Assembly: GCF_007474545.1 (NCBI RefSeq)
Contig: NZ_VKOG01000002.1
Span: 496,001-560,000, forward strand
Length of the DNA stretch: 64,000 nucleotides
Direction: 5' to 3'
Origin: Chryseobacterium binzhouense
Lineage (GTDB): Bacteria > Bacteroidota > Bacteroidia > Flavobacteriales > Weeksellaceae
Shown: in pieces, positions 4,577 to 18,722 of the stretch
How positions within the stretch are numbered: the first letter of the stretch is position 1
Layout: the number at the start of each line of letters is the position of its first letter
Program-made: the position numbers and the translations under genes
Notes under the pieces: model-generated
Told to the model about the DNA's origin: nothing
Database searches by the model: none
The model's input: only the letters and a program-made list of their open reading frames with translations

Positions 4577-7500
4577 TTAAGATTGTACGAAAAATTTACT
4601 TTCCTCATCTTCCGGATCCAAGGAAGGATTTGAATGTCCTGCATTGGACATTACTGCTGCAAAAAAATGCGGAACCAAAAGCAGAATGGTAAGAGTGGAT
4701 GCGATGATACCACCGATAACAGCTCTACCAAGTGGAGCAACCTGCTCAGAACCTTCCCCGATACCGATTGCCATAGGAATCATCCCGGCAAGCATCGCCA
4801 AAGCGGTCATCAGTACAGGGCGGAGTCTGGACGCCGCTGCCATTCTCGCAGAATGAAGCGCACTGATATGGTAATGTTTACGGTAGTACTCTGCCTGATT
4901 GATAAGTAATACGGCATTTGAAACCGAAACACCGATGGACATAATCATCCCCATATATGACTGGAGGTTGAGCGTACTGCCGGTAATGAAAATCAAAACA
5001 AGACTTCCCACGATCACGGAAGGAATCACGGAAAGAACAACAAAAGGTACTTTAAATGACTGATAATAAGCAGAAAGCATTAGGAATATCGCTAGTACTG
5101 CCGCCAAAAGTCCCATTGCAAGACTGTCGAGTGTATCATCCAGTAGCTGCAGTGTGCCTTCTGTCCAGACAGAAACACTTTTTGGAGGTTTTCCGGTCTC
5201 ACTGATGGCATTTTTCACCGCTTTGGAAGCAGAGCCCAGGTCTTTTCCGTACACATTTCCGATAATCGTTAAATATCTCATAGGTCCCTTTCGGTTGACC
5301 TGTGCAGGTGCGGTCGTTTTTTTAACTGTAGCAATATCTTCAAGAACAGGTCTCGGGCTGTCTTTTTTCAGTGGAAGTGATTTCAGGATCTCTTCAGAGT
5401 TCATTATACTTTCTGGAATCTGGACCTGTGTCTGAAAGACAAGTCCTGATTTTGGGTCGACCCAGAGGTTCTTGTCAGTGTAGCGGGTTGAAGAGGTAGC
5501 GGTCACAAGACTGCGTGTCACATCCTGCATCGTCAGTCCGAACTGCGCAGCGAGATTTCGGTCTACGTTGATCTGTAACGTCGGATATTGAAGTGGCTCT
5601 GCAATGCGGACGTCTCGCAGGAAATCGTTACTTTTTAGCTTTTCCTCTATTTTTTTTGCGTGAGATGCCGCCAGTTTCAGATTCGGAGATCCTACCTTGA
5701 TTTCTATCGGGGTCATCGATCCCTGTCCAATGATTTTTTCGGTAAGTTCCATCGGTTCAAAATTGATTTGCGCTTCAGGATGCTTTTCAGCAATCGTCTT
5801 GCGGATCTTTTCTTTCAGATCTTCCATAGACCCTGAAAAGAACTCCTTATTTACAGAAACCTGCAAAACAGACTGGTGTGTTCCGTTGGTGAAAAGAAAT
5901 ATGGGATTAATCGGCGTTGCTGCCGGATGTAAACCGACATAGGCCGAACTGATGCTGACCGCATTTTCTGGCAAAATACCTTCAATATCTTTGAGAATAT
6001 CCTTCACCAGCTTTTCAGTTTTCTCCAGACGGCTTCCCTGTGGCGCATCAATTCTCATCTGAAAATCACCGCTGTTGGAAAGAGGCATAATATCGGTTCC
6101 CAATGAGCGCATCATTAAAAATATTAAAAGACCCGAGAAAATGATATAGGCCGAAAACAACACCAAAGTCCTTCCCGACCATTTTCTCATTTTGTGACTG
6201 TAGCCCGCTCTGAATCGATAGAAAAAACTCCTGTTTTTAACATAATGCTTCTCAATATGCTTATTCTTCATCATCCAGTTAGCCAGGATCGGAACGAAGG
6301 TCTGGGATGCCAGAAAGGAAGCTATCATTGCGAATGCAACTGCAAAAGAAAGCGGAAGAAACATATCTTTTGGAATGCCCGTCATAATGAAGGCAGGCGT
6401 AAGAACAGCCAAAATACATAATAATATCAGCACCTTCGGAATGGAAATTTCAAGTACTGCATCAAGAATGGCTTTGGGTTTGGTTTTCCTCATTTCCATA
6501 TGCTGGTGGATATTCTCGATCGTGACCGTGGCTTCATCTACCAAAATTCCGATGGATAAGGCTAACCCACTCAAGGTCATTATATTAATAGTATATCCTG
6601 CAAAATAGAGTACACAGACGGCTGTTAATATTGCTATGGGAATTGTAAAGACCACGATCAGTGCACCTCGAAGGTCACCAAGGAAAAGAATAATGACCAG
6701 TCCTGTAAAGAGTGCACCCAAAAGTCCTTCATGAATTAGATTTGAAAGGGAACGTTCAATATATTTTGACTGGTCAAATTCATAACTTACCTTCACATCA
6801 TCTGGAAGCTGATCTCTCAGTTTTGGCATTGCTTTTTTTAGATTTTCAACTGCTGTCAGTGTTGAAGCATCTGATTTTTTGATCACCGGGAGATACACAG
6901 AGCGTTTCCCATTGACCAATGCATATCCAGATGTCTGGTCAGCTCCATCCTGAACATTGGCTACATCACCCACGTAAAGAGTTCTACCGTCTTGGGTCTT
7001 TATCGGGATTTTAAGAAACTCCGCAGGATCTTTGGCTATGGAATTGATCGGTGCCATATAATTCGTTTCGCCCATTCTGATATTTCCTGCTGGCGAAGGA
7101 TGGCTGCTTTTTGTGATCGCCAAAGTAATTTCTTCCGGACTCAGTCCGTTACTCTGCATTGCAGCCGGGTCAATATTTACAACGATCGAACGGATGTTAC
7201 CCCCAAAAGGTGCCGGAGCCGTAATACCGGGAATCTCAACAAACATCGGCCGGATTTTGGTTAGGACCATTGTCTGAAGCTCTGTTACAGAGTGATTGTC
7301 ACTTTCAAAGACAAGTTGACCGACCGGAAGTGAATTACCGTCAAACCGCACAACCATGGGCGGTACTGCACCGGGTGGTAAAAATCCCATTGCCCGTGAA
7401 ACCTGCGTAGAAACCTCACCTGCAGCCTGAGCCATATCGGTGCCTGGATAAAAGGTCAGTTTCATTAAGGTCAGTCCCTGAACACTTTTGAAATCAATAT

Positions 7501-7735
7501 TCTTGACACCATTCACAAAGAGTAAAACTTTTTGAAATTCATTGGACATAAAACCATCCATATATTGAGGTGAAAGCCCTCCGTAAGGCATCGCAATATA
7601 CATTGACGGCAACTCTACCTCCGGGAAAATATCTACTTTTATTTTTTTTATAGCTGTAAGGGAAAGCACAATGACCGACAGGAAAACGACCATGACGGCA
7701 ATGGGCTTTCTGAGCGCAAAACGTATTAAATTCAT
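4577..7735 (-). CDS. RND efflux transporter permease
   Basis: 1052 residues, the usual length for AcrB/MexB/CusA-type pumps. Two repeats of TM1 + periplasmic porter loop + five to six TMs are visible (KKIKVDIFPEVELP near the N-terminus; GLLGALFTGLVIILFLGD; second half GLLAAVLAIFLMLSAYYQS). The TM4 proton-relay motif reads ILVDEATVTIENIH: Asp-Glu rather than the Asp-Asp of AcrB-type drug pumps or the CusA-type metal motif. It sits 9 bases from the TolC-like gene and upstream of the adaptor. The adjacent thiol and sulfur proteins suggest a sulfur or thiol-reactive substrate (inference). Confidence 0.92.
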   Translation of the reverse strand: MNLIRFALRKPIAVMVVFLSVIVLSLTAIKKIKVDIFPEVELPSMYIAMPYGGLSPQYMDGFMSNEFQKVLLFVNGVKNIDFKSVQGLTLMKLTFYPGTDMAQAAGEVSTQVSRAMGFLPPGAVPPMVVRFDGNSLPVGQLVFESDNHSVTELQTMVLTKIRPMFVEIPGITAPAPFGGNIRSIVVNIDPAAMQSNGLSPEEITLAITKSSHPSPAGNIRMGETNYMAPINSIAKDPAEFLKIPIKTQDGRTLYVGDVANVQDGADQTSGYALVNGKRSVYLPVIKKSDASTLTAVENLKKAMPKLRDQLPDDVKVSYEFDQSKYIERSLSNLIHEGLLGALFTGLVIILFLGDLRGALIVVFTIPIAILTAVCVLYFAGYTINIMTLSGLALSIGILVDEATVTIENIHQHMEMRKTKPKAILDAVLEISIPKVLILLCILAVLTPAFIMTGIPKDMFLPLSFAVAFAMIASFLASQTFVPILANWMMKNKHIEKHYVKNRSFFYRFRAGYSHKMRKWSGRTLVLFSAYIIFSGLLIFLMMRSLGTDIMPLSNSGDFQMRIDAPQGSRLEKTEKLVKDILKDIEGILPENAVSISSAYVGLHPAATPINPIFLFTNGTHQSVLQVSVNKEFFSGSMEDLKEKIRKTIAEKHPEAQINFEPMELTEKIIGQGSMTPIEIKVGSPNLKLAASHAKKIEEKLKSNDFLRDVRIAEPLQYPTLQINVDRNLAAQFGLTMQDVTRSLVTATSSTRYTDKNLWVDPKSGLVFQTQVQIPESIMNSEEILKSLPLKKDSPRPVLEDIATVKKTTAPAQVNRKGPMRYLTIIGNVYGKDLGSASKAVKNAISETGKPPKSVSVWTEGTLQLLDDTLDSLAMGLLAAVLAIFLMLSAYYQSFKVPFVVLSVIPSVIVGSLVLIFITGSTLNLQSYMGMIMSIGVSVSNAVLLINQAEYYRKHYHISALHSARMAAASRLRPVLMTALAMLAGMIPMAIGIGEGSEQVAPLGRAVIGGIIASTLTILLLVPHFFAAVMSNAGHSNPSLDPEDEESKFFVQS

Positions 7736-7744
7736 TCTAAAATT

Positions 7745-9112
7745 TTAAAGTTGGGTAAATAAATAATCAAAATCGCCGGTGAGTTCAGCCTTTGCTATGA
7801 CCTGCTCCCAGAATTCTTTTGCGGCATCGATCTGACTTTTTTCTGCATTTTCAAGAATCTGACGGATCTGTAACAGTTCAGTGAGGGTAATAAGCCCACT
7901 CTTGTATCTTGCTACATACATTTCGTACGCATCTGATGCGCCTTTCACAGAAGCACTTTCTTTCTTAAGTTGTTTTTGCTGTTCTACAATCCTGCTTTCA
8001 AGGGCTTTAATCTCAGTCTGCATTGATAGCTGATACTGGTTTTCGAGATAACCCAGACGTTCTGCTTCTTTTGACATCATATTGGCTTTTTGCCTGTTCG
8101 TATGAAGACTGCTGATATTCCACGTCAATCCAAGTCCAACAAGAGCATTGTTGGCAGAATTGGAGAAACCATCGGTAAATTTCCCTGAGACATTGCCATA
8201 TGGATCGGATCCTGAACCTCTGTAAGCATAACCTCCCAAGATCTTAAGCGACGGAAGTGATGATCTTCTCTCTGTTTCCGCTTTGGTCTGGTAGTATTCG
8301 GACTCCTGATGGACGGACTTTAAAAAAGGATGTGATGGATTAACCTTCTCACTGTTAAAAGAATTTATTTCAGGGTCAAGAAAATGACTGACCTGGTAAT
8401 CCTCTACTTTAAAATTATCAATGTAAAATTCCTTAAGTTTTTCTGTGGCTGCCTGCTGCTTTCCAAACCAATTATCTTGCATTGCCAATGCCTGAACGTA
8501 CGATGAATAGGTAAGTACAGAATCTGCTTCCGGTTTGAGACCGGCACGCGAAAGGGCTTTGCTTGAACTGTGGATTTCTTCGAGCCTCGTCGAGTTTCTC
8601 TCTGCCCATCTGAGCTTGGCGCCATTAAAGACATAGTCAAGATAACGTTGTGATAGCAATTTTTTGAGCCTCAGCAAATAGGATTCTTTATCTGTCCTGA
8701 GCTTTTGTGTGAACTCATTTGCTGATCTTTCCTCGGATCTCTGACGCCCGAAGTTGTAGATCTCGTACTCCGCAATGGCTGAGCCGAAATTGTTTGAGGA
8801 TAAAGAGGAGCCTGAATTCCTGTTTCCGGAAACATTAAAAAAACCGGACTGTGGGAAAAAACCACCACTGCTTCCCTCTAATGTTCCATAGGTATTTTGA
8901 TATTGAAGCTTTACCTGTGGTAATGCCTTGGATTTTACTGTCTCTTCGTTATATTCTGAAGATTCTATTGCAGACTCGGCTGCACGGATCCCTGAATAGT
9001 TTTTTTGTGTTTCTGTCCATATTTTACCCAAAAGTGATTCTTGCTGGGCATAAAGGACAGACTGTTGAGTAATCAGCCCAAAAATAAGGACTGAAAGACT
9101 TTTTCTTATCAT
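7745..9112 (-). CDS. TolC-family outer membrane efflux protein
   Basis: 455 residues with a signal peptide ending LYAQ. Two similar halves rich in coiled-coil helices (WTETQKNYSGIRAAESAIESSEYNEE; later WNISSLHTNRQKANMM...), and the C-terminal GLITLTELLQIRQILENAEKSQIDA typical of TolC/OEP proteins. Forms the outer-membrane channel of the pump encoded just downstream. No own -7 element was seen in the ~100 bases upstream, so it is probably transcribed with the small lipoprotein gene before it. Confidence 0.88.
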   Translation of the reverse strand: MIRKSLSVLIFGLITQQSVLYAQQESLLGKIWTETQKNYSGIRAAESAIESSEYNEETVKSKALPQVKLQYQNTYGTLEGSSGGFFPQSGFFNVSGNRNSGSSLSSNNFGSAIAEYEIYNFGRQRSEERSANEFTQKLRTDKESYLLRLKKLLSQRYLDYVFNGAKLRWAERNSTRLEEIHSSSKALSRAGLKPEADSVLTYSSYVQALAMQDNWFGKQQAATEKLKEFYIDNFKVEDYQVSHFLDPEINSFNSEKVNPSHPFLKSVHQESEYYQTKAETERRSSLPSLKILGGYAYRGSGSDPYGNVSGKFTDGFSNSANNALVGLGLTWNISSLHTNRQKANMMSKEAERLGYLENQYQLSMQTEIKALESRIVEQQKQLKKESASVKGASDAYEMYVARYKSGLITLTELLQIRQILENAEKSQIDAAKEFWEQVIAKAELTGDFDYLFTQL

Positions 9113-9216
9113 TGTATGAAAGATTAACAGTTACCGAAATGATTCCGATAAGGATTAATAAAAATTTAAAATCAATCGTTTGAGTCTCTACAAGAAGAGA
9201 CCAATTAAATTTTAAA

Positions 9217-9585
9217 TCAAATGATAAGTTTGCGGTATTGTATGAAGATGGGAACCGTATTTCCAATTTTGGAAGTACTGTAAAATGGATGTACTCTAAG
9301 ATTTATAAACAGAAATGCCCCTGCAAATAGAATGAATGTAAATGCAGCAAGCTCCTGAAAATCCGCCACTGAAAAATGGGTATCATTTTTAGCGGTAATT
9401 TCTCTTTCCTTGCAAAAGTTGCAGACAGAGGCCGTGGTTGTGTTGGTAGTAAATTTCTCCTTTGGTGCGGAGGTATGACTTTTAGCGGAAGGCTGCAGAC
9501 TGAGTAGGTTTTTGATACCGTATTTTACAGCGCAGGAAGAAATTAAAATACATATAATGAAAAACATTGAAATAACGCTTTTCAT
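9217..9585 (-). CDS. Small lipoprotein/membrane protein of unknown function, first gene of the efflux operon
   Basis: Not recognised. From the ATG at 9585 it has a clean SPII signal (MKSVISMFFIICILISSC), then a low-complexity Ser/Thr stretch, a CxxC pair in SVCNFCKE, one C-terminal membrane segment (FTFILFAGAFLFI) and a short tail ending PIFIQYRKLII. An upstream in-frame ATG at 9618 lies only 5 bases after a -7 element (TATATTTG, 9624-9631); either start is possible. The CxxC and its position before an RND operon suggest a metal- or thiol-linked accessory role (inference). Confidence 0.6.
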   Translation of the reverse strand: MKSVISMFFIICILISSCAVKYGIKNLLSLQPSAKSHTSAPKEKFTTNTTTASVCNFCKEREITAKNDTHFSVADFQELAAFTFILFAGAFLFINLRVHPFYSTSKIGNTVPIFIQYRKLII

Positions 9586-9623
9586 TATATGATTGGTATT
9601 TAATTTCTGATAAGTCATTCCTG

Positions 9624-9631
9624 CAAATATA
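9624..9631 (-). promoter_or_regulatory. -7 promoter element of the efflux operon
   Basis: Minus strand reads TATATTTG, a full match to the Bacteroidetes TAnnTTTG element, immediately upstream of the first gene of the run ending at 405. No other strong element was seen before the TolC-like gene. Confidence 0.55.
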
Positions 9632-9682
9632 AATTTTTAATTAGTAAGGTCAAAAACATTAACAGAATTTATATGAAATACA

Positions 9683-10387
9683 TTATTGTGCAATCTTGTT
9701 TTTCACTTCCTGCTCTGTTGCAAAACCTAAATTATCCCAGACTAATTTATCGTTTTTATATAGCTTCAGGACCGGTAGTGCAGAAACATTCAGTTCTTTG
9801 CAGAGTTCTGTATTTGCATCTGCATCTATTCTTAAAATTTTCACCTTATCCGGCATTTCAGCAGCCATCTTTTTAAGGTAAGGCTCCATCTTTTTGCAGG
9901 GAGCGCACCACTCGGCATAAAAATCTACCAGAACGGGAGTATTGGTTTTCAACATTTCCTTATATTGGGCAAGACTAATTCCTGCAGCAGTTGATGCTTT
10001 GATCTCCGGAAGCTCAGCGTTCCTCCACTTCATCATCCCTCCCTGCATTTCATATACATTTTTAAAACCCATTTCCTGAAGTTTTGCAGCGGCGGCCGTA
10101 CTTCTGGGTCCGCTCATACAATACACAAATACAGGTTTATCCTTATCGAGCGCTTTTGCTTTCTCTGTGAAGTCATCTGCATTCCAGTCGATGTTCATTG
10201 CACTTTTAAGATGACCGTTACGAAATTCTCCAGGTGTTCTTACATCAACCAATTGTGCATCTTTGGTCTGGTCCAATTTTTTAGAAAATTCTTTGGCAGG
10301 AAGACTGCTCTCGCTTTTGTTACTCTGAGCTTTTCCGCATCCTGTAATTGCGATGAGAAAAAATACAACTATTAGGTTTTTATACAT
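9683..10387 (-). CDS. Rhodanese-thioredoxin fusion lipoprotein
   Basis: 234 residues. Lipobox ITGC (Cys17) places it at the periplasmic face. Residues ~33-125 are a rhodanese domain with active Cys90 in VYCMSGPRS; residues ~138-234 are a thioredoxin domain with WCAPCKK (Cys161, Cys164) and cis-Pro in ALPVLKL. The two domains would let a rhodanese-bound persulfide be released by the attached thioredoxin. It starts 1 base after the stop of the thioredoxin gene and ends the six-gene sulfur operon. Confidence 0.88.
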   Translation of the reverse strand: MYKNLIVVFFLIAITGCGKAQSNKSESSLPAKEFSKKLDQTKDAQLVDVRTPGEFRNGHLKSAMNIDWNADDFTEKAKALDKDKPVFVYCMSGPRSTAAAAKLQEMGFKNVYEMQGGMMKWRNAELPEIKASTAAGISLAQYKEMLKTNTPVLVDFYAEWCAPCKKMEPYLKKMAAEMPDKVKILRIDADANTELCKELNVSALPVLKLYKNDKLVWDNLGFATEQEVKNKIAQ

Positions 10388-10388
10388 T

Positions 10389-10694
10389 TTAAAGGTTTTG
10401 CTTGATTAATCTTTCCAGTTCATCCGCCTGAAAAACACCGGATTGTTTCCATTTTACTTCTCCATTTTTGAAGATCATCAAAGTAGGAACACTTCGGATT
10501 CCGAACTGCGCTGCTACTGCCTGATTTTTATCGATGTCAATTTTAACAATGCTTGCTGCATCACCAATATTCTTTTTGAGATCCTGAAGAATAGGCGCCT
10601 GCATTTTGCATGGACCGCACCATTCTGCGAAGAAATCTACCAATACGGGTTTCTCCTGACTGATTAGTTCCTGAAATTTATTCATTTTACTCAA
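10389..10694 (-). CDS. Thioredoxin
   Basis: 101 residues, cytoplasmic, single thioredoxin fold. Motif AEWCGPCK and cis-Pro in VPTLMIF are both intact. It lies 3 bases after the DUF2892 gene and 1 base before the rhodanese-thioredoxin gene. In this operon it probably reduces rhodanese or MBL-protein persulfides. It is distinct from the housekeeping thioredoxin at 18769-19086. Confidence 0.92.
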   Translation of the reverse strand: MSKMNKFQELISQEKPVLVDFFAEWCGPCKMQAPILQDLKKNIGDAASIVKIDIDKNQAVAAQFGIRSVPTLMIFKNGEVKWKQSGVFQADELERLIKQNL

Positions 10695-10697
10695 TTT

Positions 10698-10931
10698 TTA
10701 TATAATTTCCTCGTAATGTACTTCATCATTGCTGTTTTTTAAATCACGAGTCGGCATCGAACAGTTTCCTGTTGTACAACAGCCTAGATTCAATAATGGC
10801 ATTGCAACAAAAATTGCTCCAATAGCCGCCAGCAACCACATTCCTGATTGTATCGATTCCACCATAAGAAAAATTCCCATTGCCAAACGAAGCATTCGTA
10901 CAAAGTTCCATTTTTTCAATAAATTATTCAT
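10698..10931 (-). CDS. DUF2892 (YgaP-like membrane domain) protein
   Basis: 77 residues from the ATG at 10931 (MNNLLKKWNF). An upstream in-frame start at 11000 would overlap the methyltransferase gene by more than 60 bases and is rejected. Residues ~10-50 match the short two-helix DUF2892 domain (RLAMGIFLMVESIQSGMWLLAAIGAIFVAMPLLNLGCC), which in E. coli YgaP is fused to a rhodanese. Here it is a free protein ending with CCTTGNC; the three cysteines on the membrane side could carry sulfur (inference). Confidence 0.78.
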   Translation of the reverse strand: MNNLLKKWNFVRMLRLAMGIFLMVESIQSGMWLLAAIGAIFVAMPLLNLGCCTTGNCSMPTRDLKNSNDEVHYEEII

Positions 10932-10938
10932 ACTTTCT

Positions 10939-11550
10939 CTATTTTTTTGTACCAAATAAACGCACAACCGATGCTTTTCCCTGATGATAAGGACCTTCAT
11001 TCAGTACAGTTTCGGATATAAATGCTTCCTGAAAATCAAAATCGAAAAAATCAGTTTTCAAATCTTCTATATCATAAAGCATTTCCGAATCTTTCGGTCC
11101 TCCTGCTTTTGGATTTTCTTTCTGAAACACGGAATGGTCTTTACTAAATCCTTCCAGAATAATCTTTCCACCTTTCCTGACAAGCGAAGAAAATTGCCTG
11201 TGCAGATCACGTCTCATTTTTTCAGGAAAATGGGCAAATATCATTACCAATAGGTCAAAACTCCCGTTTTCATAGTTGATTTGATCCGCCGAAACCGAAT
11301 TATAAGTAATGGTGACCGAATTTTTATCCGCAAGTCGCTCAGCTTTCTTTTTGCCTTCTTCACTCTGGTCGAAAGCATCGACTTCAAAACCTTTCGTCGC
11401 GGCAAAAACAGCATTTCTGCCTTCTCCTTCAGCGGGAAAAATTGCTTTCCCCAGTTTAAGTCCAGCCAATTTTTCTGCAAAATACACGTTGGGCTGATCG
11501 CCGTAAACGAAATCAGATTGCCTGTATCGTTCGTTCCAGAGGTCTTTCAT
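10939..11550 (-). CDS. Class I SAM-dependent methyltransferase (TehB-like)
   Basis: 203 residues. Begins KDLWNERYRQSDFVYGDQPN, the usual start of TehB/thiopurine-type methyltransferases. The SAM site is degenerate (FPAEGEGRNAVFAA) but the acidic loop FEVDAFDQSEEG and the motif FDLLVMIFAHFP are present. In sulfur clusters this family may methylate sulfide, thiols or chalcogen oxyanions; the substrate here is inferred. Its ATG overlaps the rhodanese gene stop. Confidence 0.82.
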   Translation of the reverse strand: MKDLWNERYRQSDFVYGDQPNVYFAEKLAGLKLGKAIFPAEGEGRNAVFAATKGFEVDAFDQSEEGKKKAERLADKNSVTITYNSVSADQINYENGSFDLLVMIFAHFPEKMRRDLHRQFSSLVRKGGKIILEGFSKDHSVFQKENPKAGGPKDSEMLYDIEDLKTDFFDFDFQEAFISETVLNEGPYHQGKASVVRLFGTKK

Positions 11551-11864
11551 TATTTTTCGATTAGTTTAATCATATTTTTTAGGCTTCCGCCATTAAAAAT
11601 TTTAGCAAGTCCGTTTCGCTCTAAAGTACCTTTTGCTATTGCACTTCGGGTTCCACTTTTACAAAAAACAATGATATTTTCCTTGTTTTTGAATTCTGAG
11701 AGTTGGTCTTTAATCATTCTCAGAGGAATGTTCACAGCTCCTTCTGCACTTCCTGAAGCAAATTCTCCGGGAGTTCTCACATCAACTAAAAAAGCACCTT
11801 CATCCAAAGCTTTTATCACAGCAGAATTATCCTTTTTGCCAAATAACAATGATAGTAAATCCAT
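11550..11864 (-). CDS. Single-domain rhodanese
   Basis: 104 residues. Rhodanese fold with VDVRTPGEFASGSAEGAVNIPL and the active loop CKSGTRS (Cys68). It lies 1 base downstream of the MBL-rhodanese gene and shares a base with the methyltransferase start. Transfers sulfane sulfur between thiosulfate or persulfide and acceptors such as thioredoxin; physiological partner inferred from the operon. Confidence 0.88.
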   Translation of the reverse strand: MDLLSLLFGKKDNSAVIKALDEGAFLVDVRTPGEFASGSAEGAVNIPLRMIKDQLSEFKNKENIIVFCKSGTRSAIAKGTLERNGLAKIFNGGSLKNMIKLIEK

Positions 11865-11865
11865 T

Positions 11866-13257
11866 TTATTTCTTTACAGGGTTAGCTTTTTCTGTCCATT
11901 CCTTCATTCCGCCTGAAAAATTTTTCACATTCACAAATCCATTTTTTTTCAGCAGTGAATATGCAATGGTGGCTCTATCACCGCTTTGGCAATGAATGAC
12001 CACCGGCTTACTACTGGATATCTCGTCAAGATTATCTTCCAATGTTCCTACAAAAACATTTTCGGCATTTTCGATATGTGCAGTTTCGTATTCCGTTTGA
12101 TTTCTTACATCTACTACCTGAATGTCATCTCTGTTCAGATATGATCTAAATTCTTCAATTCCTACAACGTCAGCGGTTTGGAGATCTAAGCCTAAATTTT
12201 CAACTGTAACGATATATCCCAACATTTGATCCATCCCGATTCTCATTAATTTCCGTGTAAGATCGTCCATTTTTTCTTCCGGAGCGATCAGAATGAAAGG
12301 TTCCGAGTAATCTACGAGCCATCCCACCCAAGTGGAAAAAGAATTATTCCCCTGAATATTAATACTGCTTGGAATAAATCCGTCAGCAAAATCTTCTTTG
12401 TTTCTCGTATCAATTATTTTAACGCCATTATGGTAAGCCTCCAAAAACACACCTTTGGAAAGTTTCTTATGTTTGGGAACTTCCGTCAATAAAGGCCTTT
12501 CCACTTTATTAAGCTTCTTCATCATTGCGAAATATTTTGGAGGTTCCGGCTGCCCTTCCAGCAGATAGTCTACAAAACCGTCCTCATCTTCGTCGTACTG
12601 GAAAGCCCAATTGGTTATCTTTTCGTAACCTACCGTAGAACTTGGAACTGCTCCCAAAGATTTTCCGCAAGCGGAACCAGCACCGTGGCCTGGCCAGACC
12701 TGGATAAACTCCGGCAGTTTAGTGAAATCCCTGACAGAATGAAACATTTCTTTCGCACCATCTTCCTGATTACCGACAATTCCGGCAGCCTTCTCCAACA
12801 GATCAGGTCTTCCTATGTCGCCAACAAAGATAAAGTCGCCTGTAAAGATCATTACCGGTTCGTCAGTAGCAGGATGGTCAGTCAAAAGAAAACTAACACT
12901 TTCAGGTGTATGTCCTGGTGTATGAATTACTTTTAGGCTAAGATTTCCAACAGTAATAATATCTCCGTCGGTTACACCAATATGCGGAAACTCATATTGC
13001 CAGTCCTCACCACCTTCATCCGAAAGATACATTTTAGCTCCGGTAACTTCCGCAAGTTCTCTGGAACCTGACAAGAAATCGGCATGAATATGGGTTTCTG
13101 CAATATGTGTGATCTTCAGATTGTTTTCATTGGCAACCTGTAGATAGGTATCAATATCTCTTTTGGCGTCTATTACGATGGCTTCGCCTTTCGCCTGACA
13201 ACCGATTAAATAACTGGCCTGCGCAAGGCTCTTATCGTAAATATGCTGAAAAAACAT
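11866..13257 (-). CDS. MBL-fold/rhodanese protein (persulfide dioxygenase-like)
   Basis: 463 residues. Residues 1-~240 are a metallo-beta-lactamase fold of the ETHE1/CstB type: THIHADFLSG, HTPGHTPES, FTGDFIFVGDIGRPD and WPGHG give the iron ligands. A first rhodanese-like domain (~265-350) has no cysteine in its loop and is probably structural; the second (~365-455) has the active Cys423 in CQSGDRA. This layout matches CstB-like enzymes that oxidise persulfides. First gene of the six-gene operon, with a predicted Crp-type site upstream. Confidence 0.88.
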   Translation of the reverse strand: MFFQHIYDKSLAQASYLIGCQAKGEAIVIDAKRDIDTYLQVANENNLKITHIAETHIHADFLSGSRELAEVTGAKMYLSDEGGEDWQYEFPHIGVTDGDIITVGNLSLKVIHTPGHTPESVSFLLTDHPATDEPVMIFTGDFIFVGDIGRPDLLEKAAGIVGNQEDGAKEMFHSVRDFTKLPEFIQVWPGHGAGSACGKSLGAVPSSTVGYEKITNWAFQYDEDEDGFVDYLLEGQPEPPKYFAMMKKLNKVERPLLTEVPKHKKLSKGVFLEAYHNGVKIIDTRNKEDFADGFIPSSINIQGNNSFSTWVGWLVDYSEPFILIAPEEKMDDLTRKLMRIGMDQMLGYIVTVENLGLDLQTADVVGIEEFRSYLNRDDIQVVDVRNQTEYETAHIENAENVFVGTLEDNLDEISSSKPVVIHCQSGDRATIAYSLLKKNGFVNVKNFSGGMKEWTEKANPVKK

Positions 13258-13298
13258 CCATTAATTTTTTAAAGGTTAAACTTTTAATTTTTATAGTA

Positions 13299-13347
13299 CA
13301 AATTTCAGTGTTTGTAAATTGCCATACCGCTACTTTTGTTACATAAG
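13299..13347 (-). promoter_or_regulatory. Operator A and promoter of the persulfide operon
   Basis: Minus strand has TGTAACAAAAGTAGCG within 13327-13343 and a degenerate -7 element ending in TTTG whose G is at 13299. The operator reads as TGTAA-N6-TAGCG, a CRP-type spacing with a good left half and a poor right half; its centre is 36.5 bases upstream of that G. The same distance is found at two other genes (14732/14768.5 and 15687/15723.5). Confidence 0.65.
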
Positions 13348-13596
13348 TTAATTTTTTTTAATCTATCAGTCGTCACTCTACTAAGATAACTATAATTGTT
13401 TTCTGATAGATCGTTTCCTGATCGGTATCCTCTATATTAGTTTTTAATATACAAATTAGTGAACGAATGCTACCCCTATTACCTAATACGTCAGGATGTG
13501 ACCTATTTGTCTGAAAATAATTTGATGATCTGATAATAAAGCAAGAAATACAGATCATCAACAGTGATAAACAAGACATATCCCTGAATAAAAAAA

Positions 13597-13624
13597 GAGA
13601 CTGCATCCAAGCCGAACCAGTCTC
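13597..13624 (-). terminator. Terminator of the YeeE/YedE operon
   Basis: Minus strand forms GAGACTG...CAGTCTC (7 bp) with a 14-base loop followed by a run of seven T, 30 bases after the stop of the second YeeE/YedE gene. Confidence 0.65.
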
Positions 13625-13653
13625 AAAGAATTAGATTTTTACTGAAAAATATA

Positions 13654-14136
13654 TTAGTGGGGTAATTTATCCCTCAAATATCCATAGACCCAGGTTCCTA
13701 AAATAGCACTGATTAAAGTAACGACAACTGCCAATGCTCCCGTTCCGATCTGTGCAAAAAGGGGTCCCGGGCAAGCCCCTGTAATCGCCCAGCCAAAACC
13801 GAAAATCAATCCGCCATAGATCTGCCCTTTGTTAAATTTCTTCGGTGCAATTGAAATCTTTTCCCCATAAATTGTTTCGATGTTGAATTTCTTAATAATA
13901 AACACTGAAATCATTCCTGTAAGAACTGCACTACCGATTACGCCGTACATAAAAAACGACTGCAAACGGAACATCTCCTGAATCCTGAACCAGCTGATGA
14001 TCTCTGCTTTTACAAAAACAATTCCGAATGCTACTCCCACAAAAAGGTACTTCAGATTGTAATACCATTTTTGAGTCAAATAGCTTTGTGTTGCGCCAAC
14101 GCTGTCCTGTGGACTTAAATCTTTTTCTTTTGTCAT
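13654..14136 (-). CDS. YeeE/YedE-family (DUF6691-like) half-transporter
   Basis: 160 residues, about four membrane segments. The key element is TGACPGPLFAQIGTG, the Cys-containing half-motif of YeeE/YedE (TsuA) thiosulfate transporters. Full-length YeeE has about 350 residues; here the protein is split into two genes, this one giving the second half. It follows the other half by 11 bases. Together they likely import thiosulfate or a related sulfur species. Confidence 0.85.
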   Translation of the reverse strand: MTKEKDLSPQDSVGATQSYLTQKWYYNLKYLFVGVAFGIVFVKAEIISWFRIQEMFRLQSFFMYGVIGSAVLTGMISVFIIKKFNIETIYGEKISIAPKKFNKGQIYGGLIFGFGWAITGACPGPLFAQIGTGALAVVVTLISAILGTWVYGYLRDKLPH

Positions 14137-14147
14137 CTTATTTCAAA

Positions 14148-14711
14148 TTAAAGTGAAAGAATAATCGGCAAAATCACATTCGCCATTAAAAAACCTCCTG
14201 CCATAAAACAAATGGTTGCAATGAGTGATGGCAACTGTAAATTTGACAATCCCATAATAGCATGTCCACTGGTGCAACCACCCGCATAGCGTGTTCCGAA
14301 ACCTACCAGAAATCCACCGACAACCATTGTGATGAAACCTTTTAAAGTTAACAGACTGGCAAAATTCATTAACTGAACTGGAACGAGATTGCTGTAATCG
14401 GTAATTCCGTACGTTGCTAACTCAGCTTTTAAGTTGGGATTGACAGAGATTTCTCCCGGATTCATCAGCCACTGGGAAGCAATGATTCCACCTAGTACAA
14501 TTCCGAAGACGAAAAACAAATTCCAGAGTTCTTTTTTCCAGTCGTATTTGAAAAAATTAATGTTGGCAGGAATACACGCTGCGCAAATATGCCTTAAAGA
14601 GGAACTGATTCCAAAAGATTTGTTGCCCACTATCAGCAAAGCCGGAACTGTAAGCCCTATTAACGGACCCGCTATATACCACGGCCAGGGTTGTTTTATA
14701 ACTTCTATCAT
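14148..14711 (-). CDS. YeeE/YedE-family half-transporter
   Basis: 187 residues, about five membrane segments. It carries AGGCTSGHAIMGLSNL, the conserved Cys/Gly motif of YeeE/YedE thiosulfate carriers. It starts MIEVIKQPWPWYIAGPLIGL, as is usual for Bacteroidetes first-half proteins. Promoter with an exact -7 element and a Crp-type site lies directly upstream. Expected partner: the 160-residue protein encoded next. Confidence 0.87.
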   Translation of the reverse strand: MIEVIKQPWPWYIAGPLIGLTVPALLIVGNKSFGISSSLRHICAACIPANINFFKYDWKKELWNLFFVFGIVLGGIIASQWLMNPGEISVNPNLKAELATYGITDYSNLVPVQLMNFASLLTLKGFITMVVGGFLVGFGTRYAGGCTSGHAIMGLSNLQLPSLIATICFMAGGFLMANVILPIILSL

Positions 14712-14731
14712 TGTACTTAATTAATTTATTT

Positions 14732-14776
14732 CAAAATTATATCTTTAGGATTACTATTACGGTTACTTTTGTTACA
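14732..14776 (-). promoter_or_regulatory. Operator B and promoter of the YeeE/YedE pair
   Basis: Minus strand: TGTAACAAAAGTAACC (14761-14776), then a perfect -7 element TAATTTTG (14732-14739), then a leader of about 16 bases to the ATG at 14711. The operator centre lies 36.5 bases upstream of the last G of the -7 element, placing it near -41.5 if transcription starts 5 bases after the G. Confidence 0.7.
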
Positions 14777-14873
14777 GAAGAGTTATTATTTCTTTTTCGC
14801 TCTATTGCAAAAAATAACGAAGATGGATGTATTAATTCTTTGCCAAAATTATACTGCAAAAGTCGCTTAACAG

Positions 14874-15668
14874 TTACAAGAAAATTTCTCTTACGATGAT
14901 GAAAATTCCCATTGTTAGAATGAACCAGCCGAAAGCAGGTTTGAGTTTTCCACCGTCTATTTTTTTTGACAATTGTGCCCCTATGATAATCCCTAATATA
15001 GAGATGGATGAGACCGTTGCAAGTAGTTTCCAGTTGATGGGAACATTATGCATTGAAGTAAAAAATCCAATAAGGGAATTGAGGGAAATGATGACGAGCG
15101 AGGTACCGATGGCCACCTTCATTGGGGTTTTTAGGAGATTGACGAGTGCTGGAATAATCATAAAGCCCCCACCCGCACCGACCAAACCAGTCAACACCCC
15201 AACTGCAGAACCTTCTCCCAATACTAAAAGAGTGCTGTTTTTATCGGAATGAATGGTTTGTATTTGCAGTGCTTCGCTTTTATAAATCATTTTATAGGAA
15301 GCGAGGATCATTAATACTGCAAAAATCAGAAGTAATAAGATATCTTTGGTCACCACCAAAGTACTGATTGTAAAAACCTCATCGGGAATCAGTGGCAAAA
15401 TAAGATTTCTGGTCAAAAAAATAGAAATTATTGACGGAATGCCAAAAACCAAAGCGGTTTTCATATTGACCAGCCCTTTTTTAAAATAGGAAACTGAACC
15501 TACCACACTGCTGATTCCAACTATGAAAAGTGAATATTCTGTGGCTACGAAGGCATCTATACCAAAGAGATATACTAAGACAGGCACAGTAAGAATACTT
15601 CCCCCTCCTCCTATCAGCCCTAAGGAAATACCAATAAATATTGCGGCAATGTATCCGAAAATTTCCAT
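14874..15668 (-). CDS. TauE/SafE-family sulfite/sulfur-anion exporter
   Basis: 264 residues from the ATG at 15668 (MEIFGYIAAIFIGISLGLIGGGGS). An in-frame TTG at 15689 overlaps the presumed -7 region and is rejected. Eight hydrophobic segments; both GLIGGGGS and GLVGAGGGF repeats of the TauE/SafE family are present. Predicted to export sulfite or other sulfur anions formed by the persulfide pathway. Own promoter and operator; it is followed by a 160-base gap to the YeeE genes. Confidence 0.88.
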   Translation of the reverse strand: MEIFGYIAAIFIGISLGLIGGGGSILTVPVLVYLFGIDAFVATEYSLFIVGISSVVGSVSYFKKGLVNMKTALVFGIPSIISIFLTRNLILPLIPDEVFTISTLVVTKDILLLLIFAVLMILASYKMIYKSEALQIQTIHSDKNSTLLVLGEGSAVGVLTGLVGAGGGFMIIPALVNLLKTPMKVAIGTSLVIISLNSLIGFFTSMHNVPINWKLLATVSSISILGIIIGAQLSKKIDGGKLKPAFGWFILTMGIFIIVREIFL

Positions 15669-15686
15669 CTCTTTACTTTTATATGA

Positions 15687-15735
15687 CAAAAATGGATATT
15701 TCGTGTTTACTGCACCGCTACTTTTGTTACATAAG
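15687..15735 (-). promoter_or_regulatory. Operator C and promoter of the TauE/SafE gene
   Basis: Minus strand shows the same TGTAACAAAAGTAGCG as operator A within 15716-15731, and a near-consensus -7 element (CATTTTTG, 15687-15694). The spacing between operator centre and final G of the -7 element is again 36.5 bases. The site lies between the exporter gene and the Crp/Fnr gene, so the regulator and its proposed target are adjacent. Confidence 0.65.
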
Positions 15736-15741
15736 AAAATT

Positions 15742-16374
15742 TTAATTCAGATCTGAAACAATAATTTTGTTTCTTCCCAATTTCACTTTTCCAGAATCTT
15801 CCAATTGCTTTAGAAGTCGGGAAACAACAACTCTTGCTGTTCCAAGTTCATTCGCAAGTTGCTCGTGAGTAACGACTATAGTATTTGAATTTGCTATTTC
15901 TGCTTTTTTAGTAAGAAGATTTAGTAGTCGCTCATCTACCTTTTTAAAAGCTATAGCATTAATAATATCCAGTAATTCTTCAAAGCGTTTGTGATATAGT
16001 CTGAAAATATAGTCCAGCCATTCCGGATATTCTTTGATAAAGAGCGACACCTTTTCTACAGGTAAGAAAAGTATTTCGGAATCTTCTTCAACTTCTGCCT
16101 TTACAATACTCTTTTCATTATGCATTCCACCAAGAAAAGACATAATGCAGCTTTCACCTGCTTTAATATAGTATAATAATATTTCTCTTCCATCTTCTTC
16201 CGTTCGTATTACTTTCAACAATCCCTTCATTACAATTGGTATAGAGCGGATCGAAGCATTTTCATCTAGAATGATTTCACCTTCCCGGTAGGTTTTTAGA
16301 TTACCATTTTGGTAAAGCTTATCAAGTAATTCCTGTGAAGAAATGACATCGGAAGAAAATGCAGTATGTTCCAT
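15742..16374 (-). CDS. Crp/Fnr-family transcriptional regulator
   Basis: 210 residues. N-terminal cyclic-nucleotide-binding-type beta-barrel (~20-120), a dimer helix, and a C-terminal winged helix with VTHEQLANELGTARVVVSRLLKQLEDSGKV. It lacks the N-terminal cysteine cluster of FNR; its only cysteine is in GESCIMSF, on the sensor domain. It is the likely activator for the three operators at 13336, 14769 and 15724, given adjacency and the CRP-like geometry. The -7 element is only 2 bases before the ATG (see findings). Confidence 0.9.
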   Translation of the reverse strand: MEHTAFSSDVISSQELLDKLYQNGNLKTYREGEIILDENASIRSIPIVMKGLLKVIRTEEDGREILLYYIKAGESCIMSFLGGMHNEKSIVKAEVEEDSEILFLPVEKVSLFIKEYPEWLDYIFRLYHKRFEELLDIINAIAFKKVDERLLNLLTKKAEIANSNTIVVTHEQLANELGTARVVVSRLLKQLEDSGKVKLGRNKIIVSDLN

Positions 16375-16376
16375 TG

Positions 16377-16384
16377 CAAAAATA
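16377..16384 (-). promoter_or_regulatory. Possible -7 element of the Crp/Fnr gene
   Basis: Minus strand TATTTTTG matches TAnnTTTG, but only CA separates it from the ATG at 16374. Either the mRNA is essentially leaderless, or the true promoter is further upstream. Confidence 0.4.
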
Positions 16385-16498
16385 TTTCATCTAATATAAT
16401 GTAATTCTTCTGAATGTAAACCGTCAATATGTAACCTAGAACATTTTATCTTGTTGCAAATTGCTAATCGATAAAAAATCTATTTCAAACTTAATTTG

Positions 16499-16506
16499 TA
16501 AATTTG
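16499..16506 (+). promoter_or_regulatory. -7 promoter element of the DUF202 gene
   Basis: TAAATTTG, a full TAnnTTTG match, 41 bases before the ATG at 16548. No clear -33 TTTG at the usual distance. Confidence 0.45.
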
Positions 16507-16547
16507 GTATTGTTAGCTATTGTGGGCAAGATAAATTTTAATAAGAT

Positions 16548-16928
16548 ATGAATAAAGATAAACCTAATCATACCAGTGAACATTTGGCAAATGAAAGAAC
16601 ATTTCTTGCGTGGATGCGAACATCGATAGCATTGATGGGTTTCGGATTCGTATTAGTTAAATTTTCCTTATTTCTTAAGCAGATATCTTTAGTTGCAGAA
16701 GCTAAAAACATAGTTCACTTTCAAAATGGACATTCCAGTCTTGTAGGGATTATAATTGTAATTGTTGGAGCTATAGTTTTATTATTTTCATATATTAACT
16801 ACTACAATAACAAAAAACGTATTAATAATAATACATTTTACGAGAACAACATTTTCTTGCTCATAGTCACCATTGTTTTATTTTTGCTGAGCATTTTTTT
16901 AATACATTATCTATTAAATAACATATAA
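16548..16928 (+). CDS. DUF202 (YidH-family) membrane protein
   Basis: 126 residues. N-terminal [28 protein letters not shown] is the signature of the DUF202/YidH family; three membrane segments follow the pattern ~26-46, ~64-84 and ~100-122. Function unknown in the family. The only plus-strand gene in the left 36 kb apart from the edge fragment, divergent from the Crp/Fnr gene. Confidence 0.85.
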
Positions 16929-16978
16929 ATGATACTCACAGATTTCAATTAATTAGCTATTATAAATCAATAAAAATC

Positions 16979-17056
16979 GAAAGAGTGCTTCGTATAGATG
17001 ATGGGAAAACGCAGTCCGATTTCCTTGAAATTAAGTTTGTTCCCAAAGTTCAGTAG
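16979..17056 (+). pseudogene. Possible remnant of a coding sequence
   Basis: The frame from 16979 reads ERVLRIDDGKTQSDFLEI then KFVPKVQ and stop. It looks like the end of a real protein (the [VIL]xFVP ending recalls protein-L-isoaspartate methyltransferases) but has no start or upstream domain in the 179-base gap. Could be chance; low confidence. Confidence 0.2.
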
Positions 17057-17107
17057 ATAATCTTTATTATTACAATTATCAAAAATCCTTCAGCAAAACC
17101 GAGCTAC

Positions 17108-18343
17108 CTAAAAAATTACAACAGTTTCCTTGTTAGTAAATTTTTGTTTCAATTCCATCATATCCTTACTGACTTTTTTATCAAGTATTTTCGCATAATG
17201 CTGTGTTGTCTTAATGCTCTTGTGACCTAGCATTTTACTAACACTTTCAATGGAAACCCCATTAGACAAAGTGATTGTAGTTGCAAAGGTATGTCGTGCA
17301 ATATGATAGGTCAATTCTTTGTTAATTCCGCACAAGTCAGCAATCTCTTTAAGATATGCATTCATTTTTTGATTACTAAGAATGGGCAGCAACTTTCCAT
17401 TATTAAGACATACTGGATGATTTTTGTATTTTTCAATAATTTTCTCTGTTTGAGAAAGCAAGGGAATATTAGAAGTAGTTTTAGTTTTCTGACGTTTTGT
17501 ATAAATCCATTGAGAGCCATCAAGTCCCAAATTGATATTTTGATATGTTAGTTTTTGAGTATCAATGTACGCTAGTCCGGTGAAACAGCTGAACAGAAAA
17601 ATATCTCTTACCAAAGACAATCTTTCATTGTTAAAATCTTTGGCAAAAAGTACTTCTATCTCCTTTTCATTAAGGAACATTCTTGTCACTTCATTAAACT
17701 TAGAATGATAGTTCATAAAAGGATCTCTTTCCAGCCATCCATTTGCAAGACAGATACGAATAATCTTACCAAAATTCTTGATATATTTTACTGCAGAATT
17801 ATTATTACAGGATTTTTCAGTCCTTAAAAAAAATTCAAAATCGTTTAGAAAAGCATAATCGATCTTTTTTATTTCAATGTCGGTAATACTGTATTTCCAT
17901 TTCAAAAAATCTTTGGTATGTTTCAGACAGGTCTTATAACGGGTTAATGTTCCTTGGGCAAATTCTTTGTCTATAAGTTTCTCCATTCGATCATTATGAT
18001 CCTGAAAAACGGGAATGAGTGTTCGGGTTATTCTACCTCTACCTACTAACTTATTCTTAAGAGCCTCAGAAGTTACTGTTTCGTTATCTCTGATTAATTC
18101 GTGATAGGTGTCGTAAACTTTCTGCTCAAATGTTTTCAAATAATAATTAAGGGATCTGCAATCTTCTGAAGAACCACTAACCTTCTGCATTGCAGAATTC
18201 CATTTCGTAGGCTTTACTGTACGCTTTGTGCTTACCTCGGTTATTTTGCCGTCGATGGTAATCCGCAAATAAATAGGAGACTCTCCTACAGAATTGATTT
18301 TAGCTTTTTTTACATAGAAAAGTAAATTGAATGTCTTGTTCAT
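17108..18343 (-). CDS. Tyrosine site-specific integrase, CTnDOT/Bacteroidetes type
   Basis: 411 residues: arm-binding domain (~1-95), core-binding SAM-like domain (~110-205), catalytic domain (~220-400). Visible catalytic residues are Lys286/288 region, His347 and Arg350 (HIARHTFAT), His374 (LGHKSIKTT) and nucleophile Tyr383. The first catalytic Arg is missing: the TGLR motif reads TGLA (Ala258), as is known for IntDOT-type enzymes. It lies 250 bases from the 3' end of tRNA-Asp, in the same direction, a classic arrangement for island integrases. No relaxase or transposition genes follow in the window. Confidence 0.9.
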   Translation of the reverse strand: MNKTFNLLFYVKKAKINSVGESPIYLRITIDGKITEVSTKRTVKPTKWNSAMQKVSGSSEDCRSLNYYLKTFEQKVYDTYHELIRDNETVTSEALKNKLVGRGRITRTLIPVFQDHNDRMEKLIDKEFAQGTLTRYKTCLKHTKDFLKWKYSITDIEIKKIDYAFLNDFEFFLRTEKSCNNNSAVKYIKNFGKIIRICLANGWLERDPFMNYHSKFNEVTRMFLNEKEIEVLFAKDFNNERLSLVRDIFLFSCFTGLAYIDTQKLTYQNINLGLDGSQWIYTKRQKTKTTSNIPLLSQTEKIIEKYKNHPVCLNNGKLLPILSNQKMNAYLKEIADLCGINKELTYHIARHTFATTITLSNGVSIESVSKMLGHKSIKTTQHYAKILDKKVSKDMMELKQKFTNKETVVIF

Positions 18344-18442
18344 ATTGTTTAGCGTTTAAGATTTAAAATTAACCTTAGCAAAAACTTATCACAAGATATT
18401 CAGTTGCTGAACTAGCTGCTGAACAGGGTTTGTCTGAATTTC

Positions 18443-18489
18443 CAGTGACCTTTTTTAACCTGTTTCAACAGGTCACTGAATAGGTCACT
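18443..18489. repeat. Clustered inverted/direct repeats upstream of the integrase
   Basis: CAGTGACCT (18443-18451) is inverted as AGGTCACTG (18470-18478), enclosing CCTGTT-tc-AACAGG, and AGGTCACT recurs directly at 18482-18489. Such clusters beside an integrase start can be arm-type binding sites or an attachment-site relic; function is inferred from position. Confidence 0.4.
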
Positions 18490-18534
18490 TTCAGATTGTG
18501 ATTTTTTAGTTCTCTTTGAACATACATAAAACAA

Positions 18535-18568
18535 AAAAAGCTTTAAAACGTATGTTTTAAAGCTTTTT
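18535..18568 (-). terminator. Terminator of tRNA-Asp
   Basis: A 15-bp perfect stem (AAAAAGCTTTAAAAC / GTTTTAAAGCTTTTT) with a GTAT loop, followed on the minus strand by a T-run, 24 bases after the tRNA. Confidence 0.8.
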
Positions 18569-18591
18569 GTACTACTTTGATATTGTAGTTG

Positions 18592-18665
18592 CGATCCGGA
18601 CGGGACTCGAACCCGCGACCTCCGCCGTGACAGGGCGGCATTCTAACCAGCTGAACTACCGGATC
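18592..18665 (-). tRNA. tRNA-Asp (anticodon GTC)
   Basis: 74 bases on the minus strand. Acceptor stem GATCCGG/CCGGATC, D arm AGTTCAGCTGGTTAGAAT, anticodon loop CTGTCAC with GTC, T loop GGTTCGAGTCC. Discriminator G, as expected for tRNA-Asp. No encoded CCA. Confidence 0.95.
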
Positions 18666-18722
18666 ATTTTGGTACTGCAAAAATACACTTTTTAACTTAT
18701 TTTACAAACATCAGATCAAAAA

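Follow-up and report, generated by a model that had tools for sequence, protein, structure and literature searches.

The persulfide regulators named in the available part of one review are of the CsoR, ArsR and Fis types, with no Crp type among them (PMC9774590). In Acinetobacter baumannii, circuits built on FisR and BigR control pdo, tauE and a yeeE-yedE-pdo2 operon, and the Crp protein of this organism was found to be persulfidated, with a conserved cysteine placed opposite the ligand pocket, according to the excerpts of that study at hand (PMC7315123). The sulfide and persulfide regulators named in the portion of the literature available to us come from phyla other than the Bacteroidota, and a limited search of open-licence literature, in the excerpts it returned, found no Crp/Fnr regulator of persulfide genes. 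Here we describe a cluster of sulfur genes in Chryseobacterium binzhouense that adjoins a Crp/Fnr gene, for which a first-pass annotation had proposed that the regulator activates three transcription units from one and the same operator.

In the window (the whole 64,000-nucleotide stretch of DNA that was analyzed), the Crp/Fnr gene (15742..16374, minus strand) was found by Pfam and alignment to encode a regulator of 210 amino acids with a single cysteine, Cys76, and the recognition helix RVVVSR (residues 181-186). A DUF202 membrane protein gene (16548-16928) lies divergent to it. The cluster genes are likewise on the minus strand and include: (i) a TauE/SafE family transporter (14874..15668; Pfam TauE, 4e-42), whose ATG is downstream of the predicted transcription start; (ii) a pair of YeeE/YedE family genes (Sulf_transp by Pfam; first 14148..14711, second 13654..14136); and (iii) an MBL-fold protein with two rhodanese stretches, predicted to be of the persulfide dioxygenase type by Pfam and by its likeness to 3tp9/3r2u (11866..13257), a rhodanese (11550..11864; Pfam), a TehB-like SAM methyltransferase (10939..11550; Pfam), a small open reading frame (10698..10937) that had no Pfam or NCBIfam match and that we take to be DUF2892-like, a thioredoxin open reading frame with WCGPC noted by eye (10389..10694), and a rhodanese-thioredoxin fusion (9683..10387; Pfam). 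Over nearly its full length the MBL-rhodanese protein matched PDB 3tp9 (E 7e-122) and 3r2u (E 5.5e-113), the latter presumably CstB, and its arrangement of an MBL domain followed by rhodanese domains places this predicted enzyme among the CstB-like proteins.

Class II CRP-type activators bind at -41.5, and the three promoters of the window were compared with this arrangement. The 16-mer reported in the first-pass annotation was recovered by a scan of the window as exact copies at 13328-13343 (site A), 14761-14776 (site B) and 15716-15731 (site C), all on the minus strand; these were the exact members of a set of seven window matches with at most three mismatches, against 2.46 expected. Motif scan and conservation together define operators of 22 bp at 13325..13346 (A), 14758..14779 (B) and 15713..15734 (C), all minus strand, which contain the 16-mers as their cores. 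On the same strand, the -7 elements were placed at 13299..13306 (GAAATTTG), 14732..14739 (TAATTTTG) and 15687..15694 (CATTTTTG), with TTTG ending at 13299, 14732 and 15687; each operator centre is thus 36.5 bases upstream of the last G, and the claim of one operator at one spacing held at all three promoters. The annotated -7 elements themselves stood in part: TTTG is at the fixed distance in all three, but the full TAnnTTTG occurs at site B only, with A and C lacking its first T. The available part of the transcription start maps of Flavobacterium psychrophilum puts the sigma-A box TAnnTTTG at -12 to -5 (PMC9723704). Taken as a ruler, these mapped promoters place the last G of the -7 element at -5 and therefore the operator dyad centre at -41.5, as in class II promoters, with predicted starts at 13294 (A), 14727 (B) and 15682 (C); the expectation of a start 4-6 bases after the -7 G is consistent with this ruler. 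A perfect inverted repeat was ruled out, as dyad positions matched by eye at three of six in A and C and at four of six in B; the operator of this group is an asymmetric variant of the palindrome GTAAC-N4-GTTAC.

A census of the 3.61-Mb genome was used to locate further sites. The genome contains just six exact copies of the 15-mer TGTAACAAAAGTARC, split evenly between the window and a second cluster, and the composite of site plus TTTG has seven matches with no more than one mismatch (three in the window and four in the second cluster), all of which precede cluster genes. Beyond these seven, the next best composite matches in the genome carry three mismatches, for a total of 10 matches at up to three, while the reversed control gave 11 at up to three mismatches that were undivided by mismatch level. 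A looser palindromic composite returned the same seven sites at one mismatch or fewer, against three for its reversed control. The scan called for by the first-pass annotation thus found seven sites, all at sulfur clusters, and sites before many unrelated genes were not seen. With only seven sites in the whole genome a global regulator is ruled out, and a chance or promoter-intrinsic motif is ruled out by the genome-wide counts and the reversed controls.

The second cluster, on contig 1 of the same genome (L009, 5503-14646), is a diverged copy of the whole cluster with four sites. It encodes TauE, YeeE-YedE, MBL-rhodanese, rhodanese, methyltransferase, thioredoxins and a second copy of the regulator, together with a further MBL-rhodanese gene that is distinct (34% identity) and has a site of its own. 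Its three matching promoters share 66-75% identity with their window counterparts and retain the site and TTTG, one site there bearing one mismatch. This divergence of paralogous promoters, and the repetition of the pattern at distant and unlinked loci, rule out recent duplication alone as the source of the likeness. In G316 and G357 the same site was noted by eye in front of an unlinked operon that encodes a rhodanese, a small membrane protein and a thioredoxin, and G409 has the same kind of 45-mer as those unlinked-operon sites; it was also noted by eye before an SQR-like gene (L085) and an OsmC-like gene (G643). Predicted sites precede MBL-rhodanese, TauE, YeeE and rhodanese genes, and the "sulfur regulon" of the first-pass annotation could be kept in a narrower form, since sulfur genes do stand behind the sites but point to the handling of sulfide and persulfide.

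The spacing was next examined across related loci, sampled as 60 stretches, best first, from among the matches listed. In 61 loci and the window, 92 sites scored at least 13/15, of which 38 (36 scoring 13 and two scoring 14) were excluded as not being 20-260 bases upstream of a same-strand cluster gene. Among the 54 sites kept, TTTG begins at base 42 in 52; in a set of 80 named loci, 140 distinct sites reached a score of 14/15 or more, and 128 of them have it at that position. Eight of the 80 had no composite match; six of these have TTTA at the same place, and the record of one (L177) ends just after the regulator. In the eighth, from Nubsella (L241), no site was found near a regulator that is a close homologue. 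Conservation over the 54 sites spans 22 bp, TTnTGTAACAAAAGTARCnGTA, with the promoter-distal GTAAC invariant in all 54, though the sites were picked by likeness to it. The first T of the -7 box is present in only six of the 54. Flavobacterial promoters usually carry TTG in the -33 region; at these sites GTA of the conserved operator occupies -33 to -31.

Sites with the same spacing were detected in records of Pedobacter, Emticicia, Fluviicola, Flavobacterium, Taibaiella and Chitinophagaceae. Phylum-wide, the strict composite occurred in 10 of 296 genomes, and its reversed control gave zeros among the rows listed; in seven of the 10 it was at a sulfur cluster, and G439 was left unassigned. In G064 (L252) and G191 (L253), of the Flavobacterium group, a composite site with one mismatch precedes a gene for a 174-aa lipoprotein-like protein, and no cluster gene was found in the 3-kb locus around it. 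A blind palindrome search in the distant group returned GTAAC-N4-GTTAC in 11 of 23 loci, against one in the background, while the closest group gave no clear winner because the site there is lopsided. More distant relatives (L077-L099) carry full palindromes, either GTAAC-N4-GTTAC or GTGAC-N4-GTCAC. Sister regulators with REAVSR or REATSR helices are encoded beside a rhodanese gene in L068-L076; their sites pair a GTAAC half with a GTGAT half, the spacing being unchanged, and in L071 and L073 such sites were also noted by eye in front of a TolC-like gene.

Co-occurrence of site and regulator was examined across the genus group (149 genomes). In 106 of them the composite site (no more than one mismatch) was detected, 224 times in all, against 10 occurrences for the reversed control, and the regulator was found in 104 (E at most 1e-80). 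Both were present in 104 genomes, the regulator alone in none, the site alone in two (G088 and G345) and neither in 43; the site is thus in 104/104 genomes with the regulator and 2/45 without it (Fisher p 1.8e-35, relatedness ignored). G345, which is 75% complete, has two sites, and the regulator was not found there. In G088 (L264) a perfect site precedes the MBL-rhodanese gene and the regulator was again not found, which may mean that the regulator was lost recently or that some other protein reads the site. YeeE was found in 107 of the 149 genomes, and by eye the three of these without the regulator are G383, G384 and G088; no site was found in the stretch examined of G383 or G384.

By profile, the regulator is a member of the Crp/Fnr superfamily, scoring 44.6 bits for PF00027 (cNMP_binding; cut-off 27.5), 43.1 for PF13545 (HTH_Crp_2; cut-off 27) and 24.6 for PF00325 (cut-off 21). 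It falls outside the named equivalogs, with NCBIfam scores of 53.6 for CRP (cut-off 266), 37.1 for NtcA (cut-off 244.95) and 19.1 for Fnr (cut-off 228), and its single cysteine likewise sets it apart from FNR. Arg181 and Arg186 of the recognition helix are invariant in 41 diverse relatives. In E. coli CRP, Glu181 is one of three residues listed for base contacts, together with Arg180 and Arg185, in the accessible part of the source (PMC12531629). By eye, residue 182 of the regulator, a valine, aligns with this glutamate.

Residue 182 could be read in 79 of the 80 named loci. Any site of the modelled types was present in 35 of 45 Val182 loci and 13 of 17 Glu182 loci. At Val182 loci, 58 of 61 such sites have no GTGA-type half and the remaining three carry a GTGA/GTCAC half, whereas at Glu182 loci 19 of 20 have a GTGA-type half and one does not; reversed sequences gave no site. 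Two further cases point in this direction: (i) the Ala182 regulator (G643) has TGTGAC in all three of its sites, the third without full TTTG; and (ii) L240, the one regulator with Thr182 among the 79 read, has two sites, of which one contains TGTGAC. L185, a Val182 locus, has one GTGAC site beside two GTAAC sites. A tree was made from 50 of 63 rows, with site types entered for 36, and the residue 182 label changes four times on it, two of these changes being forced by well-supported branches. As there are only two to three independent Val/Glu pairs, a sign test is powerless and the Fisher p of 2e-14 for residue 182 against half-site is overstated given shared ancestry. The alignments nonetheless support co-variation of residue 182 with the half-site, Val probably pairing with GTAAC and Glu with GTGAC/T, over few independent changes. 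CRP mutants E181V/L/K change preference at this base.

Cys76, the only cysteine of the regulator, is invariant in 63/63 homologues, down to 35% identity, as well as in all 79 regulators read of the 80 named, and it is among the 15 invariant columns of 41 diverse sequences. Twelve of the 13 Crp-type proteins of this genome could be read, and ten others have no Cys in this column; three of these ten have one in the next column. In an AlphaFold monomer model (mean pLDDT 89.1, pTM 0.67) Cys76 is just before helix 77-84, at what we take to be the place of the CRP phosphate-binding cassette. Of the 63 homologues, 53 have K or T and one has R at position 88, presumably the counterpart of the cAMP-phosphate Arg in CRP; the neighbouring Ser89 is invariant (63/63), and an acidic residue (E or D) stands at position 74 in 58. 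Because the only cysteine is invariant, persulfide sensing is the best guess for the signal, and we put the chance that persulfide acts through Cys76 at about even. About 20 of the 63 relatives have extra cysteines at 82 and 83, which suggests some other chemistry in these homologues. Most regulators of L077-L099 have these two cysteines beside Cys76, perhaps as a dithiol version of the sensor.

Taken together, the co-occurrence, the fixed spacing, the rarity of unrelated sites and the co-variation of residue 182 support the earlier reading, and the Crp/Fnr protein very probably acts as the class II activator for a regulon of sulfide and sulfane-sulfur genes. As a dedicated activator of the cluster, the protein encoded at 15742-16374 would bind as a dimer to the 22-bp operator TTnTGTAAC-N4-GTARCnGTA at -41.5 of sigma-A promoters, where it would take up the -33 region next to a -7 box mostly without its first T, and would aid RNA polymerase in starting three units: (i) TauE/SafE; (ii) YeeE-YedE; and (iii) MBL-rhodanese, rhodanese, methyltransferase and thioredoxins. 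Sulfane sulfur, as persulfide or polysulfide, may react with Cys76 in the region that binds nucleotide in CRP, and the products of the regulon would then oxidize, transfer and move sulfane sulfur. The wider proposal, that this Crp/Fnr branch is widespread in the Bacteroidota as a single-Cys persulfide/polysulfide sensor and class II activator of sulfide oxidation, is tentative, and we hold it at slightly below even chances.

Three rival explanations bear on different parts of this model. The same regulator and regulon might respond to some other signal, whether a small ligand (cyclic nucleotide, thiosulfate or other), a metal centre or the redox state; this is a serious possibility, if on balance somewhat improbable. 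The invariant Ser89 and the acidic position 74 would fit a pocket that remains in part, but Cys76 is one of few invariant residues, position 88 is hardly ever arginine, and the regulon is made up of sulfur genes. How the protein acts could also be read in the opposite sense, with the operator covering the -33 region and sulfur releasing a repressor. The persulfide regulators CstR, SqrR and BigR are repressors in the accounts available to us, and the overlap with the -33 region fits such a role; yet a position fixed at -41.5 over wide divergence and a -7 box as weak as that found here are features expected of class II activation that repression would not need, and we regard repression as very unlikely.

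The class II activator reading also assumes that the adjoining gene encodes the protein that reads the site. A Crp paralogue or a sigma factor could do so instead, the Crp/Fnr gene being incidental, and G088 and G345, with sites and no regulator found, count in favour of such a reader. Set against this are the 104/104 co-occurrence, the loss of the sites, in the stretches examined, from two of the three genomes where YeeE is present but the regulator is not, and the co-variation of regulator residue 182 with the half-site, which together leave another reader extremely improbable. The link between site and adjoining Crp/Fnr gene drawn in the first-pass annotation was supported in the same way, by co-occurrence, fixed spacing and co-variation; to that reading are added the recognition code, the spread, the likely signal, the second cluster, Cys76 and a mobile setting.

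An integrase gene (17108-18343, by eye) stands between the cluster and a tRNA-Asp gene (18591-18665), and 11.5 kb (window 7168-18673) are 99.9% identical in G331, whose compared stretch ends there; G331 also carries additional copies, of 78-85 bp, of the tRNA region. The cluster looks like part of a mobile island that carries its own regulator and promoters, and no match was found in the plasmid records searched. In a large, less studied phylum, genes of this kind appear to be under a different family of regulator. The regulon is small, discrete and portable, and its window copy is located on an island next to a tRNA gene. If true, this would extend the folds of reactive-sulfur sensors beyond the CsoR, ArsR and Fis types covered in the available part of the review (PMC9774590), and would offer a readable recognition code, with residue 182 deciding between TGTAAC and TGTGAC. 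A single recognition residue that co-varies in nature with a single base would be a clean case of altered specificity in the Crp family.

In comparison with known systems, the regulator and E. coli CRP at class II promoters have in common the fold family, a dimeric operator of about 22 bp centred at -41.5, and the counterparts of the base-contacting Arg180 and Arg185, the contacts being those given in the accessible part of the source (PMC12531629). They differ in that the regulator has Val for Glu181, has TGTAAC for TGTGA, and is dedicated to one gene set. NtcA, the cyanobacterial nitrogen regulator, has a similar recognition helix (R-V-T-V-T-R in the alignment), and its site form, GTA-N8-TAC, resembles the operator described here, but the targets of the regulator are sulfur and not nitrogen genes. 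The closest solved relative by profile is PDB 3dv8 of the Crp/Fnr family (E 7e-38), which has a cysteine aligned with Cys76 but a different recognition helix, REVITR in place of RVVVSR. The FisR and BigR circuits of Acinetobacter baumannii have target genes of the type found in this cluster. Unlike the regulator, neither FisR, a sigma-54 activator, nor BigR, an ArsR-type repressor, is of the Crp/Fnr family in the excerpts that describe them, and the persulfide sensors described there use two or three thiols where a single thiol is found here. The cst operon of Staphylococcus aureus, controlled by CstR, shares with this locus a target of the persulfide dioxygenase-rhodanese type, whereas CstR itself is a tetrameric repressor of the CsoR type that has dithiol sites, as given in the available part of the review (PMC9774590).
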